From positions 124,001 through 188,000 of the forward strand of contig NZ_CP119108.1 of assembly GCF_029094505.1 (NCBI RefSeq): a DNA stretch of 64,000 nucleotides, given 5' to 3'. The position numbers were made by a program, and so were the translations under genes. The stretch is from Microbacterium horticulturae. GTDB taxonomy: Bacteria; Actinomycetota; Actinomycetes; Actinomycetales; Microbacteriaceae. How positions within the stretch are numbered: position 1 is the stretch's first letter; each line of letters opens with the position of its first letter. Under the pieces are notes generated by a model, which searched no databases, had not been told where the DNA came from, and saw only the letters and a list, made by a program, of their open reading frames with translations. Positions 24,408-64,000 of the stretch are shown here, in pieces.

Positions 24408-25193
24408 TCACCGCCCCCACGGCCACAGCAGCGCGAACAGCGCCGCCGACACCGCCAGCACGAGCGCCACGAACACCGTGTCGCGCGTGCGGAACGGCAC
24501 GTCGTGGCGCTCGGTGCGGTCGGGGTACGCGCCGAAGGCGCGGGCATCCATCGCCAGGGCAACGCGCTCGGCATGCCGGATGGCGCCGGCCAGCAGCGGC
24601 ACGATGTACCCGAAACCGCGGCCGAGCGCCGCCAGCGGGCCGCGCGCCTGACCGCGCACGCGATGCGCCTGCCGGATGATCTCGAGCTCGTGGCGGAACC
24701 GCGGCACGAACCGGAACGCCGCGATCGCCGTGTACCCGACCCGGTAGGGCACCCGCAGCTGCTGCACGAGCGAGCGGGCGAGATCCTGGCCGGTCGTGGT
24801 CAGCCCCGCGACGAGCGCGAGCGCGACGATGGCCGCCAGCCGCAGGCCGGTGGCCAGGCCGACCTGTACGGCTGCGCCGTACAGCGTCCACCCGCCGAGG
24901 CGCAGGACGACGACGTCGTGTGCAACGCCTGCCGGGTCGGTCCACAGCGCGAAGCCGACGGTCATGATCGCGACGAGCGCGGGGACGACGGCGAACAGCA
25001 TGACCACCGTGCGCGCGGTGACCCGGGCGCCGACGAGCACGAGCGCGTACGCGAGCACGATGAAGGCCAGGGGAGTGGCGAGGTCGCGCACGAAGATCAG
25101 CATCAGCATCGCCGGCACGGGCGCCAGCAGCTTCGCCAGAGGGTTGAGCCCGTGCAGGAAGCGCGCGGAGCCGGCGGCCGGGATCGCGGTCAC
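24408..25193 (-). CDS. ykoC: ECF transporter transmembrane subunit (EcfT, YkoC-type)
   Basis: 261-residue EcfT scaffold: N-terminal LNPLAKLLAPVPAMLMLIF, four to five membrane helices, and the coupling motifs IRQAHRVRGQARG and AMDARAFGAYPDRT (the Ala-Arg-Gly-type motifs contacting the ATPases). Start overlaps the EcfA stop (25190-25193, ATGA), so synthesis is coupled. With the dual ATPase and YkoE-type S component upstream it forms a complete dedicated ECF importer. Confidence 0.9.
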   Translation of the reverse strand: MTAIPAAGSARFLHGLNPLAKLLAPVPAMLMLIFVRDLATPLAFIVLAYALVLVGARVTARTVVMLFAVVPALVAIMTVGFALWTDPAGVAHDVVVLRLGGWTLYGAAVQVGLATGLRLAAIVALALVAGLTTTGQDLARSLVQQLRVPYRVGYTAIAAFRFVPRFRHELEIIRQAHRVRGQARGPLAALGRGFGYIVPLLAGAIRHAERVALAMDARAFGAYPDRTERHDVPFRTRDTVFVALVLAVSAALFALLWPWGR

Positions 25194-27004
25194 GATCGCG
25201 CTTCGGGCAGGTCGCGGCGCAGGAGGTCGCCCCCGGGCAGGTCGGCCAGGCGCACGACCCCGTCGAGTTCGGGATGCCGCGCCAGCCCACGCAGCGCGGC
25301 GCGCAGCGGCGGGGGTCGCAGCCCCGCGCGCTCGATGAGCGCGTCATCGGAGAACACCGCGTGCGTCCGCCCGTCGGCGAGCACGCGCCCGTCGTCGAGC
25401 ACGATGGTGCGGGTCGCATGCTCGGCGACCAGCTGCATGTCGTGCGTCACGACGATGACCGTGGTGCCGTCGCGGTTGAGGTCGGTGAGCAGGTCGAGCA
25501 GTTCGTCGGCGCGGGCGCGGTCCTGCCCGAACGTCGGCTCGTCGAGGGCGAGCACCGGTGCGCCGGCCACCAGCGCGGTGCCCACCGAGAGACGGCGCTT
25601 CTGGCCGCCCGACAGCAGGAACGGGTGCACATCGGCGCGATCTTCGAGTCCGAAGCGCCGCAGAATGTCGTCGACACGCGCGTCAGCCGCGTCGTCAGTG
25701 GGATGACGCAGCCCGTAGGCGAGTTCGTCGCGCACCGTGTGCGTGACGAACTGGTGCTCGGGGTTCTGGAAGACGAAGCCGATGCGGCTCGTCAGCTCGC
25801 GTGCGCGGGCGACATCGACGCCGCCGACCAGTACGGAGCCGCGCAGCGGCCGCACGACCCCCGCGATCGCCTGCAGCAGGCTCGTCTTGCCGGCACCGTT
25901 CGCTCCCACCACGGCGACGAACTCGCCGGCGCCGATGTCGAGGCTGACGTCGTGCAGCACCTCGGTCGTGCCACGGCGCAGAGTGAGATGGCGGACGCTC
26001 ACTGCTTCGGGCGTTTCGACTCGCGGCTGCACCGCTCGCGGGGCGACCGAGGGTGTGCTGTTACCGGGCGTTGAGCGAGGGAGTGGAGCGACCGAGTCGA
26101 AACGCGGTCCGGGTGTCGTTTCGACTCGCTTCGCTCGCTCAACGACCGGGTGGACGGGCGGCGCACTCTCCAGCGCGACGCGCAGCTCGGCTGGGGTCAG
26201 CGGCAACGGCTCGAGCACATACCCGGCGCGACGCATCCGCAGGGCTGCGAGCGTCGCCGTCGGCAGCCAGACGCCCAGCTCGTGCAGCTCGGCGGCGCGG
26301 CTGCGCAGGATGTCGGCGGCCGGGCCGTCGGCGATGGTGCGGCCCGAGGCATCCATCACCACCACCCGGTCGACGAAGCCGATCGCCTGATCGAGGTTGT
26401 GCTCGACGAGCACGACGGCGCGGTCGCCTGCCGCGACGATCTCGCCGACCGTCGCGGAGACCTCGTCGACGCCGCGCGGGTCGAGGTTGGCCGTGGGCTC
26501 GTCGAGCACGAGCAGCGGTGAACCGAGGGCCAGCGCCGCGGCGATGGCGAGACGCTGACGGCCGCCGCCCGAGAGCGCGTCGGGACTGTCGTCGCGGCGC
26601 TCCCACAGCCCGACGCGGCGCAGGGCGTCTTCGCTGCGCGCGAGCACCTGGCTGACCGGGAGCCGCAGGTTCTCAGGGCCGAACGCGACCTCATCGAGCA
26701 CGGTGCCGGTGACCAGCTGCGCGTCGGGGTCTTGGAAGACCATGCCGACACGGGTCGCGAGGCGGGAGACGGGGGTGGATGCCGCATCCATCCCGTCCAC
26801 GGTGACGCTGCCGCGTACCTCGGCCTCGATGTCGTGCGGGATGAGCCCGTTGAGCGTCAGCGCGAGGGTGGATTTGCCCGAACCGCTCGGGCCGAGCAGC
26901 AGCACGACCTCGCCCGGCTCCACGGTGAACGATGCGCTCGAGGGGGCGAACACGGCCTCGCCGTCGTGCCGCACGGCGAGGTCCTGCACGCGCAGGAGCG
27001 ACAT
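25190..27004 (-). CDS. ykoD: Fused dual ECF ATPase (YkoD-type), linker built from repeat elements
   Basis: 604-residue protein holding both ATPases in one chain. Domain 1: Walker A GPSGSGKST (38-46), DALSGGGRQRL, LLVLDEPTANLD. Domain 2 from about residue 337: Walker A GANGAGKTS, LSGGQKRRLS, LALDEPTFGQD. The linker at 287-335 is unusual: it contains VVERAKRVET, RFDSVAPLPRS and RAVQPRVET, all encoded by copies of a repeat also found intergenically and in a second ATPase at 61.7 kb. Starts one base after the ykoE stop. ATP hydrolysis drives uptake through EcfT and the S component. Confidence 0.92.
   Translation of the reverse strand: MSLLRVQDLAVRHDGEAVFAPSSASFTVEPGEVVLLLGPSGSGKSTLALTLNGLIPHDIEAEVRGSVTVDGMDAASTPVSRLATRVGMVFQDPDAQLVTGTVLDEVAFGPENLRLPVSQVLARSEDALRRVGLWERRDDSPDALSGGGRQRLAIAAALALGSPLLVLDEPTANLDPRGVDEVSATVGEIVAAGDRAVVLVEHNLDQAIGFVDRVVVMDASGRTIADGPAADILRSRAAELHELGVWLPTATLAALRMRRAGYVLEPLPLTPAELRVALESAPPVHPVVERAKRVETTPGPRFDSVAPLPRSTPGNSTPSVAPRAVQPRVETPEAVSVRHLTLRRGTTEVLHDVSLDIGAGEFVAVVGANGAGKTSLLQAIAGVVRPLRGSVLVGGVDVARARELTSRIGFVFQNPEHQFVTHTVRDELAYGLRHPTDDAADARVDDILRRFGLEDRADVHPFLLSGGQKRRLSVGTALVAGAPVLALDEPTFGQDRARADELLDLLTDLNRDGTTVIVVTHDMQLVAEHATRTIVLDDGRVLADGRTHAVFSDDALIERAGLRPPPLRAALRGLARHPELDGVVRLADLPGGDLLRRDLPEARS
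26011..26146. repeat. Three in-frame copies of the GTTGAGCGAG...GAGTCGAAACG element inside the ATPase gene
   Basis: On the minus strand, 26146-26117 is a 30-bp copy identical to 61764-61793 and encodes VVERAKRVET. A diverged copy in the opposite orientation spans 26068-26104 (read as RFDSVAPLPRS), and a third decayed copy at about 26048-26011 encodes APRAVQPRVET. All lie in the inter-domain linker, where insertions are tolerated. Confidence 0.8.
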
Positions 27005-52460: not shown

Positions 52461-52496
52461 GGGCGCGCGCGTCGTCGGGCGCCGGCACGCGGACCG

Positions 52497-52540
52497 CGTT
52501 GAGCGAGGGCGCGCAGAGCGTTGAGCGAGGGCGCGCAGAG
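52497..52540. repeat. Two tandem 22-bp copies of the GTTGAGCGAG-type element
   Basis: CGTTGAGCGAGGGCGCGCAGAG is present exactly twice (52497-52518, 52519-52540), followed by CCGAGTCGG. It belongs to the same family as the in-frame elements at 26.0-26.1 and 61.7-61.8 kb. Confidence 0.75.
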
Positions 52541-52566
52541 CCGAGTCGGCACGCCCCACCCCGAGA

Positions 52567-58144: not shown

Positions 58145-60825
58145 GCGGCCGGCGCGGGCTCGGGCTCGCTGTGCGCGCGGTGGCGACGAGCCCGGTCGTC
58201 TCGCTCATCGTCGTGGTCCTCGCCGCGGTCATCGCGTTCGTCGGCGCCGCGGTGCCCTCCCTGCTCGACGACGCCCGCACGGCGACCGTGCAGCGCGAAC
58301 TGCACACCCTGCCCCGCGCCGTGCTCGACCCGGTCGCGACCTTGCAGGGTGCGGCATCCCCCGACTCCACGACCGGAGCGGACCCGTGGGCGCTCGCCGA
58401 AGACACCGCCGCCGGCATCCACCGCGACCTGCCGTCGCCGCTGCGCCGTGTGCTGGGCGCGCCCGGTGTGTCTGTCGTGCTCGACGGCCAGACGGCGGTG
58501 CCGACCCCGCGTGTGCCGGCGCCGTCGAACCGGGTCGAGGTCGCGCTCGATCCGGACCTTGATCAGCGGATCCGCATCGTGAAGGGACGGATGCCGCGGC
58601 CCACCGACGTCTCGACCGCAGCGCATCCGGTCGTCGACGTCGTGCTGTCGCAGGAGGCCTCGGCGGCGCTTGCGTGGCCGCTCGGCCAGAAGCGCGTGCT
58701 CGGCTTCAGCGACCTGCCGATGACCGTCAGGCTCGTCGGCCTCTACGAGGCGGTCGACCCCGGTGACCCGGCGTGGGTGCAGCGGCCGACCGGACTGCAC
58801 CCGTCGGCCGATCAGAGCGGCGGTGAGGCGGTGCACCTGGCCACGGCGTACGCCGCGTCCGACATGCTCGGTGCGATCGACGTGTGGGTGGGCGAGGCGT
58901 CGACGACGGTGTGGATGCCGCTGCTCGACGACCGCGTCACCGGCGCGCAGGCGGCCGAGCTCGCCGCGCAGCTGCGCGGCTTCTCCGCGTCGCAGCAGCA
59001 GTTCTCGGTGCGCGGCGCCGGCTTCTACGAGCAGGGGCTCACGTTCCGCAGCTCGGCTCCGACGTCGCTCGAGGCCGGAGCCGCGCGCGGTGATGCCATC
59101 GCCGCGGTCGCGACGCTCGCGGCGGTCGGGCCGCTGGCGGTCGCCGTGGTCGCCATCGCGATGGCGGGCCGGATGCTCGCCTCGCGCCGTGTCGGCACCG
59201 TGCGCGCCGCGCGCGCCCGAGGGGCGTCGCTGCGGTTGCTGGCCGCGCTGCTCGGCGTGGAAGGGCTCGTACTCGGCGCGGTGGGTGCCGCCGTCGGAGC
59301 CGCTCTCGCGGCGATCCTCGTGGGGTGGACGGGTGTGGCATCCACCGTCGTTCCGGTCATCGTCGCGGTGACCCCGATGATCGCCGTGCCGGCCGCGGCG
59401 CTGAACGCGGCCGCCCGCACCGCCCGGCGCGACCTCGGCGTCGCCGACCGGCCGACCCGCCGCCGCCGGCTCATCGTGGAGGGCGCCGTCGTCGCCATCG
59501 CGGCGGCGACGATCCTGGTCGCCGCGAACCGACCGGTCGGTATGGGGCTCACGCCGGTGCTGCTCGCAGTGCCGGCCGCCGTGTTCGCGATCGGATGCGT
59601 GGTGGTGCTGCGCCTCATCCCGCCGGTGCTCACCGGTGTCGAGGCGCTGGTCGCCCGCGGGCGCGGCGTCATGGCGCTCGTCGGGCCCGCTCGCGCGAGA
59701 CGCGGGCGCACCCTGCCGATCGCCACCGTGCTGGCCGCTCTCGTGTGCGTTGCGACTGCGCTGTTCGCCGGCGTGTCGATCGCCACGATCACCTCGGGCA
59801 TCGCGCAATCGGCCCGCGCGCAGGCCGGCGCCGACCTGCGCGTGAGCGCCCCGGCGATCGACGCGGATCAGCTCGCCGCCCTGCGCGCTCTGAAGGGGGT
59901 GGATGCCGCGGCTCCGGTCTACGGCGGCGCAGCCCTCCCCGCGCACTCGGAGGGCACCTGGACCACCGTGACGATCCTCGGCGTCGATCCCGCGGAGCTC
60001 GCCGCGGTGCAGCAGGACGTGGCCGGGGCCCTGCCGCTGCCGAAGACGCTGGGTGCGAGCGGCGGACCCGTGCAGGCCGTGGCGTCGGACGCGCTCGCCC
60101 GGATGCTCGACGGCGACGCGATCGTCGTGCGCGGTGTCGAGGTCGAGGTCGCCGCGCACGCGGAGAGCGCTGCCTTCGCGCCGGCGGGCCTCTGGCTCGT
60201 CGTCGGCCGCGCCGACGCCGCGCGCATCCTCGGGCCCGCGCCGAACGTCGACACGGTGCTGCTCGACGTCGCCGACGGTGCCGAGGCGCAGCGGGTTGCG
60301 GCATCCGCCACCCGACTGCTGGGCAAGGGCGCCGAGGCCGTCGTCCCCAGCGAGATCGCCGCGCAGATCGCCGCCGACCCGGCGATGCAGGCGGTGCAGG
60401 CATCGCTCGTGGCGGCGCTCGCGATCGTGACGCTGCTGCTCGTGCTCGCCGTGGCGATGACCCTGCTGCGCGGTGCACCCGCGCGCGGCCGGATGCTCGG
60501 CCTGCTGGCGGCGATGGGGTATCCGCGCGGCCGGGAACTGCCGCTTGTGGCATGGGAGGTCGCCCCGCCGCTGCTGCTCGCACTGCCGGTCGGCGTCGCG
60601 GCAGGCTTCACGCTGCCGCCGCTGCTGCTGCCAGCCGTCGACCTCGCACGGTTCGTGGGCGGGGGAGCGCAAGCACCCATCGCGGCGCCATCGTGGCTGG
60701 TGTGGCTGACCGTGGGCGGCTACCTGCTGATCGCCGCCGTCGCCGTGGTGGTCGCTGCGGCTGTGGCGGCGCGGATGACCGCGATGATCGCGCTGCGGCG
60801 CATCGACGAGGAGATCGAGACATGA
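58141..60825 (+). CDS. Large ABC exporter permease 2 (FtsX-type)
   Basis: 894-residue permease, parallel to permease 1: N-terminal helix (VVSLIVVVLAAVIAFVGAAV), extracytoplasmic domain, central helices (AIAAVATLAAVGPLAVAVVA; TVVPVIVAVTPMIAVPAAAL), second extracytoplasmic domain and C-terminal helices including LLIAAVAVVVAAAVAARM. It starts at the ATGA overlap with permease 1, so the two probably form a heterodimer. Confidence 0.87.
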   Translation: MSGRRGLGLAVRAVATSPVVSLIVVVLAAVIAFVGAAVPSLLDDARTATVQRELHTLPRAVLDPVATLQGAASPDSTTGADPWALAEDTAAGIHRDLPSPLRRVLGAPGVSVVLDGQTAVPTPRVPAPSNRVEVALDPDLDQRIRIVKGRMPRPTDVSTAAHPVVDVVLSQEASAALAWPLGQKRVLGFSDLPMTVRLVGLYEAVDPGDPAWVQRPTGLHPSADQSGGEAVHLATAYAASDMLGAIDVWVGEASTTVWMPLLDDRVTGAQAAELAAQLRGFSASQQQFSVRGAGFYEQGLTFRSSAPTSLEAGAARGDAIAAVATLAAVGPLAVAVVAIAMAGRMLASRRVGTVRAARARGASLRLLAALLGVEGLVLGAVGAAVGAALAAILVGWTGVASTVVPVIVAVTPMIAVPAAALNAAARTARRDLGVADRPTRRRRLIVEGAVVAIAAATILVAANRPVGMGLTPVLLAVPAAVFAIGCVVVLRLIPPVLTGVEALVARGRGVMALVGPARARRGRTLPIATVLAALVCVATALFAGVSIATITSGIAQSARAQAGADLRVSAPAIDADQLAALRALKGVDAAAPVYGGAALPAHSEGTWTTVTILGVDPAELAAVQQDVAGALPLPKTLGASGGPVQAVASDALARMLDGDAIVVRGVEVEVAAHAESAAFAPAGLWLVVGRADAARILGPAPNVDTVLLDVADGAEAQRVAASATRLLGKGAEAVVPSEIAAQIAADPAMQAVQASLVAALAIVTLLLVLAVAMTLLRGAPARGRMLGLLAAMGYPRGRELPLVAWEVAPPLLLALPVGVAAGFTLPPLLLPAVDLARFVGGGAQAPIAAPSWLVWLTVGGYLLIAAVAVVVAAAVAARMTAMIALRRIDEEIET

Positions 60826-61907
60826 GTGACGAACCCGACATCGTGTGTGAAGGACTCGTGCGCATCTACACGGCGCAGGGCGTCGAGGTGCAGGCGCTGC
60901 AGGGGCTCGACCTGCTCGTACAGCCCGGCGAGATGGTCGCGCTCATCGGGGCGTCCGGTTCGGGCAAGTCGACGCTGCTGAACATCCTGTCGGGCTCCGA
61001 CACCCCCAGCGCGGGACGCGCCCGGGTCGCCGGTCACGATCTGGTCGCCATGCGCGGGCGCGAGCGGCTCGACTACCGGCGCGGCGTCGTCGGGTTCGTC
61101 TGGCAGCAGTCCGGGCGCAACCTGCTCCCATACCTCTCGGGGCGCGAGAACGTCGCCATGGCCCAGGACGTCGCCGGCGTCATCCCTCGTCGTGAGCGAG
61201 AAGAGCGAGTGGATGCGCTGCTCGAACAGCTCGGCGTGGCGCACGTCGCTGACAGGCGACCCGCGCAGCTGTCGGGCGGGCAGAAGCAGCGGGTGGCGAT
61301 CGCCGTCGCGCTGGCGAACGGCCCGCGTGTGCTGCTCGCGGATGAGCCGACCGGCGAGCTCGACGAGGCCACGAGCGCCGAGGTGCTCGCGGCCATGGAA
61401 CAGGTCAACCGCGAGCACGGTGCCACGACCCTCATCGTCACGCACGACGCGACCGTCGCCGAGCACGTCGATCGCACCGTGCGCATCCGTGACGGACGCA
61501 CCTCGACCGAGACGTTGCGCGCCACGCACACTGACGAGTCCGGACGCCGCGTGCGCGTGGCCGCCGAATACGCGGTGCTCGACCGCGCCGGGCGCATGCA
61601 GCTGCCCGCCGACTACGTCGAGGCGCTCGAGCTGCGCGACCGGGTGCGCCTCTCGCTCGAGCCCGACCGCATCGAGGTGCGGCCCGGGAGCGGGGCGCCG
61701 CCGGTGCCCCCGCCCGTTGAGCGAGCAGCGCAGCCGCGAGTCGAAACGTCCGACGTGCCCTCGGTCGTTGAGCGAGCGAAGCGAGTCGAAACGCCCGACG
61801 CTCCTGGGGATAAGGACGCCTCGCGAGCGCAGCGAGTCCAGACGTCGCAACCCGAGCAGGATCCCCGGCCCCCGGCATCCACCTCCGACGAGGAGGACCG
61901 GTCATGA
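60822..61907 (+). CDS. ABC exporter ATPase 1 with repeat-derived C-terminal tail
   Basis: 361-residue ATPase of the LolD/MacB type: Walker A GASGSGKSTLL, signature LSGGQKQRVAIA, Walker B VLLADEPTGELDEAT, H-loop THDATVAEHV. After a regulatory-like segment to about residue 290, the tail contains VERAAQPRVET, VVERAKRVET (315-324) and ASRAQRVQTSQ, encoded by three copies of the GTTGAGCGAG element. The tail is Pro/Glu-rich and probably disordered. ATGA overlaps on both sides. Confidence 0.92.
   Translation: MSDEPDIVCEGLVRIYTAQGVEVQALQGLDLLVQPGEMVALIGASGSGKSTLLNILSGSDTPSAGRARVAGHDLVAMRGRERLDYRRGVVGFVWQQSGRNLLPYLSGRENVAMAQDVAGVIPRREREERVDALLEQLGVAHVADRRPAQLSGGQKQRVAIAVALANGPRVLLADEPTGELDEATSAEVLAAMEQVNREHGATTLIVTHDATVAEHVDRTVRIRDGRTSTETLRATHTDESGRRVRVAAEYAVLDRAGRMQLPADYVEALELRDRVRLSLEPDRIEVRPGSGAPPVPPPVERAAQPRVETSDVPSVVERAKRVETPDAPGDKDASRAQRVQTSQPEQDPRPPASTSDEEDRS
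61715..61846. repeat. Three in-frame repeat copies in the second ATPase
   Basis: Copy A 61715-61748 (VERAAQPRVET), copy B 61764-61793 (VVERAKRVET; identical over 30 bp to the inverse complement of 26117-26146), copy C about 61818-61846 (ASRAQRVQT). All in the C-terminal tail. Confidence 0.82.
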
Positions 61908-63527: not shown

Positions 63528-63637
63528 CGCGGGGTGGATGCCGCGGCCCCGTGTCTTCGCCGCGGCGGGGCGCCGTGTGCCCTGTGCCGTGTGCCCCGGC
63601 TTGCGGCATCATCCCGAACTGATGCCACCCTCGTTCC

Positions 63638-63687
63638 GTCGTCGCAGATTACCGATTTTCCGGGCGAGAACGGTCATCCGTGACGAC
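63638..63687. repeat. REP-like palindrome, copy 3
   Basis: GTCGTCGCAGAT (63638-63649) and ATCCGTGACGAC (63676-63687), 10 of 12 matched with G-T pairs, with ACCGATT/CGGTCAT core. Followed by the family ending CGAACGAGCG. Confidence 0.75.
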
Positions 63688-63739
63688 CGAACGAGCGGAG
63701 TGGATGCTGGGGCCCGCGGCATCCACCACGGGATCTTCC

Positions 63740-63789
63740 GTCGTCGCAGATTACCGATTTTTCGCGCGAGAACCGTCATCCGTGACGAC
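63740..63789. repeat. REP-like palindrome, copy 4
   Basis: GTCGTCGCAGAT (63740-63751) and ATCCGTGACGAC (63778-63789). It overlaps the end of the last gene and supplies its stop codon region. Confidence 0.75.
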
Positions 63790-64000
63790 CGAACGAGCGC
63801 GGCGGCGAGCCCGGAGCACCGTGCGGCGGCGGCGCCGGCGCTCCCGCCAACCGATCTCGCGCAGGTTCAGCGTGATGTCGTGGAACGCCCACGACGCCCG
63901 GCGCTTGAACCCTGCGACGTTCTGGAACGGCCGCGCCGACACGCCCACGTGCAGCTCGGCGTCGTACTCGACGCGCATGTCGGCGTCGAGCGTCATCGTG
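63751..64000 (-). CDS. Partial hypothetical protein, cut by the window end
   Basis: At least 83 codons remain open to the window edge; ATG 63996 is the first in-frame Met in view but the true start may lie outside. The visible part reads VGVSARPFQNVAGFKRRASW, FHDITLNLREIGW, then a very basic run RERRRRRRTVLRARRRAR and a tail SVVTDDGSRAKNR that is translated from a REP-like palindrome. No family recognised. Confidence 0.45.
   Translation of the reverse strand, partial: TMTLDADMRVEYDAELHVGVSARPFQNVAGFKRRASWAFHDITLNLREIGWRERRRRRRTVLRARRRARSVVTDDGSRAKNR

Follow-up and report, generated by a model that had tools for sequence, protein, structure and literature searches.

Several families of short palindromic repeats offer themselves for comparison with the element reported here. 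The GTAG REPs and REPINs, as treated in PMC3733652, are short hairpins that occur in many copies, form inverted dimers, lie downstream of genes and donate stop codons; they are sometimes intragenic, DnaE2 and RNA helicases being among the genes concerned, and in all of these respects the Microbacterium units behave likewise. A second class in the same source, the CGTC-tagged REPs, includes dRS3 of Neisseria and RPE-4 and RPE-6 of Rickettsia. Its members bear the tag CGTC (or TGTC, or CCTC), begin their stem with A-T at positions 1 and 2 and have no known dedicated transposase, and the five phyla given for them do not include Actinobacteria; they share with the Microbacterium repeat the short palindrome, the predominance of inverted dimers and the occurrence of intragenic units. 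The Rickettsia palindromic elements (RPEs), as PMC10969869 describes them, are palindromic repeats some 150 bp long that have a conserved peptide and lie, as some Microbacterium units do, in frame within unrelated protein genes.

The preliminary description of this DNA knew of no such element in actinobacteria. In that breadth the statement needs qualifying: PMC3733652 mentions untagged REP-like sequences in M. tuberculosis and others, and PMC12306157 gives a definition of REPs with a table of counts that includes three Actinomycetota genomes. For the present family it stands: in the open-access literature, judged by titles and the openings of abstracts, no description of a Microbacterium hairpin repeat family came up, and the 16-nt core, taken on either strand with three of the four possible loop bases and hence in six spellings, had no occurrence in the open-access paper texts searched. 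We consider it probable (about 0.8) that the repeat constitutes a REP-like family found in Microbacterium and a small number of other actinobacteria, with the working name tandem-GA REPs, whose members are non-autonomous hairpins copied in trans and filtered by selection.

Repeat units in two ATPase genes

The window is the 64-kb stretch that was analysed, positions 124001-188000 of the single contig (C1; 3,645,982 bp) that makes up the genome. Two of its genes carry the repeat (Table 1). The 30-bp identity that had drawn attention to them is confirmed in every letter, 61764-61793 on the plus strand being the reverse complement of 26117-26146, and both genes read it in the same frame as VVERAKRVET; 100 dinucleotide shuffles gave no chance match to the 30-mer or its core. 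The preliminary description was also right in giving each gene three copies, diverged ones among them, and in placing these in a linker or tail: the units lie in the linker separating the two ABC_tran domains of the energy-coupling factor (ECF) ATPase and within the variable C-terminal tail of the ABC ATPase. It did not mention that one of the ECF copies is inverted.

Two other repeats lie in the window. At 52496-52541, the 22-bp unit GCGTTGAGCGAGGGCGCGCAGA stands twice in tandem, and its start resembles the element without the right half. In an open frame at 63538-64000, FRRRRLPIFRARTVIRDDRTS occurs twice, the second copy starting 34 residues after the first; this is a further repeat.

Table 1. 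Genes of the window that carry the repeat, and their units.
Feature	Position	Strand	Details
ABC transporter ATPase, host gene	60822..61907	+	361 aa; MacB/LolD-like; below all NCBIfam cut-offs shown
PF00005 in the 361-aa ABC ATPase	residues 26-177		profile match
Unit 1, ABC ATPase tail	61715..61748	+	longer inner stem; translated PVERAAQPRVET; genome match 185717-185746
Unit 2, ABC ATPase tail	61766..61793	+	exact consensus hairpin CGTTGAGCGAGCGAAGCGAGTCGAAACG; translated VVERAKRVET
Unit 3, ABC ATPase tail	61821..61844	+	degenerate; translated SRAQRVQT
ECF dual ATPase, host gene	25190..27004	-	604 aa; TIGR04520 over cut-off; two ABC_tran domains
Unit, ECF linker	26117..26144	-	exact consensus; translated VVERAKRVET
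Unit, ECF linker	26069..26104	+	inverted pair with 26117-26144; gene reads FDSVAPLPRST
Third unit, ECF linker	26012..26048	-	degenerate; translated SVAPRAVQPRVET

Anatomy of the unit and evidence for pairing

The consensus of the copies is CCGGT-CGTT-GA-GC-GA-[stem]-GNA-[stem']-GA-G(n)C-GA-AACG. Read as a hairpin, it presents a 4-bp outer stem, a tandem G.A/A.G step, two base pairs and a single bulged nucleotide that may be A, T, C or G, a second tandem G.A/A.G step and an inner stem, variable in length and sequence, which ends in a GNA triloop; the whole unit measures 26-40 nt. The 5' flank is CCGGT by majority (C 36, C 45, G 46, G 35 and T 39 among 46 own copies).

The outer pairs and the covariation were assessed on loci L285-L354 only; loci fetched by the full pattern were excluded, as their paired positions had been selected by it. 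In 101 copies picked by the core alone, each of the four outer positions is paired in 88-92; outer pairs 2-4 exceed all 2000 shuffles (maxima 73-75), covariation is lacking at pair 1 (T-A), where 88 of 101 copies pair against a shuffle mean of 88.7, and position 5, the next outward, is unpaired. For the 46 distinct rows of the covariation test, 95.1% of cells are paired and 37 cells are altered on both sides, values that none of 500 shuffles reach, and the same holds for the covariation score of 0.327, slid registers giving at most 0.115; as the copies are related by descent, shuffles overstate the significance. Two further measures fall within the range of the shuffles, namely the number of pairs changed on both sides, 3, which 423 of 500 shuffles reach, and that of further pair types, 10, which 81 of 500 reach. 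The four inner of the eight pairs are invariant in this test because the selection pattern fixed them. Elsewhere, among 226 copies whose outer stem is complete, 12 have C-G in place of the middle G-C; they come from three loci, two of them from one assembly.

The inner stem, for all its variation, also stays paired. Among 508 positions in 91 distinct segments of at least 9 nt, 378 are Watson-Crick, where 1000 re-dealt trials averaged 297 and reached 323 at most, and 44 are tandem G.A/A.G, for which re-dealing averaged 20 and reached 32 at most, leaving 86 that are neither; the GNA loop is present in 66 segments, and 28 are fully closed with that loop. A smaller set of 39 distinct segments has 183 of 223 positions paired (re-dealt maximum 160). 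Selection by the GA steps and the loop only returned 307 matches, in 280 of which at most one of the 8 predicted pairs is missing, against 2 for the reversed selection, a result that is not independent since most of the loci had been fetched via the repeat. With DNA energy parameters (ViennaRNA, the 26-mer without the outer C-G) the fold is not favoured (z +0.76; 159 of 200 shuffles as good). With RNA parameters, the proposed fold is the minimum for the 28-mer and for a 34-mer; the 28-mer is no better than its shuffles (z +1.04, 181 of 200), and the 34-mer has z -1.79.

At the level of sequence, these comparisons establish the unit as a palindrome predicted to form a stem-loop, with outer and inner stems that covary and with constant GA steps and GNA loop. 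Tandem sheared G.A pairs and hairpins of the GCGAAGC type are stable, and we infer such sheared pairing for the GA steps here. The GA strand alone would then make a proper hairpin, as its complement would have T.C mismatches.

Dispersal, placement and turnover of the units

A genome-wide search with the repeat, which the preliminary description had proposed together with a survey of orthologues, finds it dispersed. The 26-mer has 47 copies at up to three mismatches in the 3.65-Mb genome, 20 forward and 27 reverse, and its reversed control has none; a pattern with the inner part left free gives 51 matches (one nested within another; control 0). A looser pattern has 71 matches in the same genome and its control 27, which makes chance part of the explanation for the weaker ones. 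The distribution along the chromosome is uneven only weakly (46 sites, Rayleigh p ~0.026). Dispersal on this scale bears on the thought that GC-rich codon usage and linkers rich in Ala, Arg and Glu give similar DNA by chance. The genic copies do occupy hypervariable linkers and tails, but exact 26-mers stand between genes and on both strands, several frames are used, and the shuffled and reversed controls remain at 0; the dispersed intergenic copies rule out such convergence, and we put its probability at practically nil.

Within the genus, copies at up to two mismatches are found in 28 of 59 sampled genomes (all controls 0), and the exact 20-nt core occurs in 223 of 366 Microbacterium genomes, with 0 to 181 copies each and 7 control matches in total. 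In a sample of the phylum, the free-inner pattern matches 7 of 396 genomes, three of the seven being Microbacterium and four having one match each (control 1). At least 120 named loci carry this pattern, and the 80 listed come mostly from Microbacterium or other Microbacteriaceae; among the matches listed are also Gordonia, Mumia, Leucobacter, a Ruaniaceae bacterium and an Actinomycetota MAG. In Gordonia asplenii (L102, 3002-3722), eight units of alternating orientation and a period of ~208 bp form a BIME-like array. The repeat pattern is matched as well by two loci titled Lagierella massiliensis (L150) and uncultured Bacteroidales (L152), where contamination or mislabelling is possible.

Mobile replicons and known RNA families were searched with the unit or its loci. 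Phage carriage was rejected, as 3 of 50,697 phage records match the 33-nt unit at E<=10 and none covers more than 80% of it. Plasmid records gave 25 matches at E<=10, six covering at least 80% of the query; we take as true copies only those on the 465-kb replicon of Microbacterium sp. NIBRBAC000506063 (E 1e-4, three places) and the remainder as weak matches. Rfam had no match at the gathering score in six own loci (53,206 bases); the sole match below it was MIR8670, on both strands of the inverted pair in dnaE2 (34.3 and 31.9 bits, gathering score 150).

For placement in the genome, gene calls came from a simple codon model, and 69 elements at 46 sites were counted, the copies at genome 50872, 528662 and 2731312, outside the fetched flanks, being left out. 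The sites comprise 26 single, 17 double and 3 triple ones. Among the 23 neighbouring couples, 12 are inverted with their CGAAACG (3') ends inward and spacers of 7-28 bp, which is the arrangement of a REPIN, two inverted units with a short spacer; 9 are tandem and 2 opposite. Thirty-five sites are non-genic (25 between same-direction genes, 7 convergent, 3 divergent). Of these, 27 overlap the stop of a gene or are at most 54 bp away from a gene 3' end; at eight, the preceding gene terminates at a TGA that the unit contributes near its own 5' end. Many dispersed copies, seldom coding, are what REPs in general present. The units at 2048861 and 2050569 of the genome (L048), 1.7 kb apart, each stand behind a gene end, and the similarity of the two gene ends gives the impression of a joint duplication of gene and unit.

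This placement is what hairpins selected at mRNA 3' ends for termination, RNase blocking or insulation would have, with the genic copies as accidents; the eight stop codons agree with such a role, and the RNA model yields the same hairpin. But the exact core is missing in 143 of the 366 genomes of the genus, no T excess was found in the eight bases 3' of own units, and orthologous sites differ in occupancy. We regard regulatory selection as an unlikely, though not negligible, explanation for the family; individual copies could serve the host even under the mobile origin that we favour.

The genic sites are still a minority, 11 of 46, in fetched stretches that our own gene caller makes ~0.90 coding. 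They hold 20 units, two of them weak (4 mismatches), in ten genes: the ECF dual ATPase, the ABC ATPase, an MFS_2 transporter, HsdM/N6_Mtase, CcsB, HrpA, LeuC, an AP_endonuc_2 protein, an ADP-ribosylglycohydrolase and DnaE2, the error-prone DNA polymerase (NF004225 over cut-off). Sense-strand units fall 7 in frame 0, 7 in frame 2 and none in the stop-bearing frame 1, and antisense units 3 and 3 in two frames; the four frames give the peptides VERAKRVE, LSERSESK, FDSLRSLN and VSTRFARST. The consensus has a stop in only one of six frames, the TGA of GTTGAG.

The preliminary description had likened the element to RPEs and had supposed insertion in a translatable frame. What remains of the likeness is that the repeat is palindromic and dispersed, and that protein genes which it enters can read it in frame. 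The sites are mostly outside genes, the unit is a hairpin that often forms an inverted pair, which is REP/REPIN anatomy, and the spread of genic units over four frames leaves no room for a special one. RPE-like elements under selection for their translated insert would account for in-frame units in ten unrelated genes, but the units give four different peptides from four frames and genic sites are few in DNA that is mostly coding, so that we hold peptide selection to be very improbable.

Turnover was judged by comparison between species, with one genome per species, on fetched loci in which an element was called at up to two mismatches in the clamp. The element is present in 5 of 29 ECF loci (out of 48 other genomes with a match), in differing frames and within linkers that are hypervariable among the fetched genus loci; in 1 of the 15 ABC tails, all of which were fetched; and in 9 of 29 hrpA loci, three of the nine doubtful (out of 213 other genomes scored in the 366-genome genus set). 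Ordinary linker sequence shared by all orthologues and matched by no DNA elsewhere, the alternative that the preliminary description had named, is contradicted on both counts, most fetched orthologues being without the element.

Individual sites differ in occupancy between relatives. The inverted pair of hrpA (aa ~561-595) corresponds at the DNA level to an alignment gap in the relatives G169 and G138. A second hrpA insertion (aa ~1028-1050) is common to the own genome and G169 with one of its two units altered in each, the own left unit being split by 24 bases and the right unit of G169 decayed; in dnaE2, the own cluster is 132 bp longer, and G169 has one degenerate unit there. These two sites in common with G169 indicate that some copies are old. 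At genome 1171630, a pair adjoins an extra ~1.4-kb transporter gene that is absent from G169, which keeps a decayed unit only; units may thus mark sites of gene gain or loss. The extra gene is a metabolite/H+ symporter-like MFS (L042, 2453-4056; own genome ~1170052-1171655). In hrpA of G209 (L239), the same insertion-tolerant linker reads PELVEGPEPVATPELVEGP, which suggests a second, different repeat family at this spot. The 13-mer TGAGCTTGTCGAA of this 'PELVEGP' repeat has one occurrence in 314 loci (L069); the repeat may resemble the tandem-GA repeat family, and it is presumably common elsewhere.

In sum, as far as aligned sequences can establish it, the units are single, tandem or in REPIN-like inverted pairs, dispersed and patchy across species, and orthologous places have them absent, single or multiplied.

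Search for a mover and the relation to described families

The search for a mover covered Y1_Tnp (PF01797), which we take to be the family containing RAYTs. The profile was not found in the own genome and has one match each in the 59-genome and the 366-genome genus sets; the same search was positive in 5 of 14 control genomes. The sole genus match is in G041 (L068), a genome with 0 exact cores and two copies at up to two mismatches.

These counts have to be weighed against a spread of ordinary REPs by a REP-associated tyrosine transposase that was later lost or became too diverged to detect. The unit does resemble the GTAG REPs of PMC3733652 in its anatomy, in forming inverted dimers, in its preference for gene 3' ends and in supplying stop codons. 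But the GTAG tag is absent, the transposase is found in 1 of 366 genus genomes against 223 with the core, and its loss in almost all carriers is poorly compatible with copy numbers so uneven. A RAYT origin appears to us distinctly unlikely.

The unit differs from each described family in defining features. Compared with the GTAG REPs, its hairpin is mostly preceded by CCGGT where they have GTAG, its stem conserves the tandem G.A steps and carries a GNA loop, and 365 of 366 genus genomes gave no match to a Y1 transposase. The CGTC REPs differ in their tag from its CCGGT flank and in the start of their stem, which is C-G, G-C here and not A-T, with a variable inner stem. From RPEs, as PMC10969869 presents them, it is set apart by its small size, its four reading frames and its mostly extragenic location; and relative to a REPIN, it is often a single unit (26 of 46 sites). 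The repeat is REPIN-like overall and RPE-like inside genes, and lacks defining features of the GTAG, CGTC and RPE families. Whether it deserves a class of its own among REPs, with a single-strand hairpin of tandem sheared G.A pairs and GNA triloop, a free inner stem and a non-Y1 mover, is a proposal that we make tentatively, at somewhat less than even odds.

The mechanism that we favour for the tandem-GA REPs would begin with an enzyme that recognises the folded single strand. The repeats would be non-autonomous and copied by a factor in trans, one that in 365 of 366 genomes is not recognisable as a Y1/RAYT transposase. With five of six frames open, insertions would survive chiefly downstream of genes and in insertion-tolerant protein linkers or tails, and the genic copies would be tolerated passengers filtered by selection and not functional domains.

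What makes or moves repeats that have no RAYT is the puzzle raised by the CGTC class (PMC3733652). The uneven copy number in a single well-sequenced genus (0-181 per genome by the exact core), the covarying and unusual hairpin and the turnover at orthologous sites mean that a comparison of carrier with non-carrier genomes can address the question of the mover. The family adds an actinobacterial case of short repeats that write peptides into unrelated proteins, and its hosts again include DnaE2 and an RNA helicase, gene categories that PMC3733652 reports for the REPs of other bacteria.
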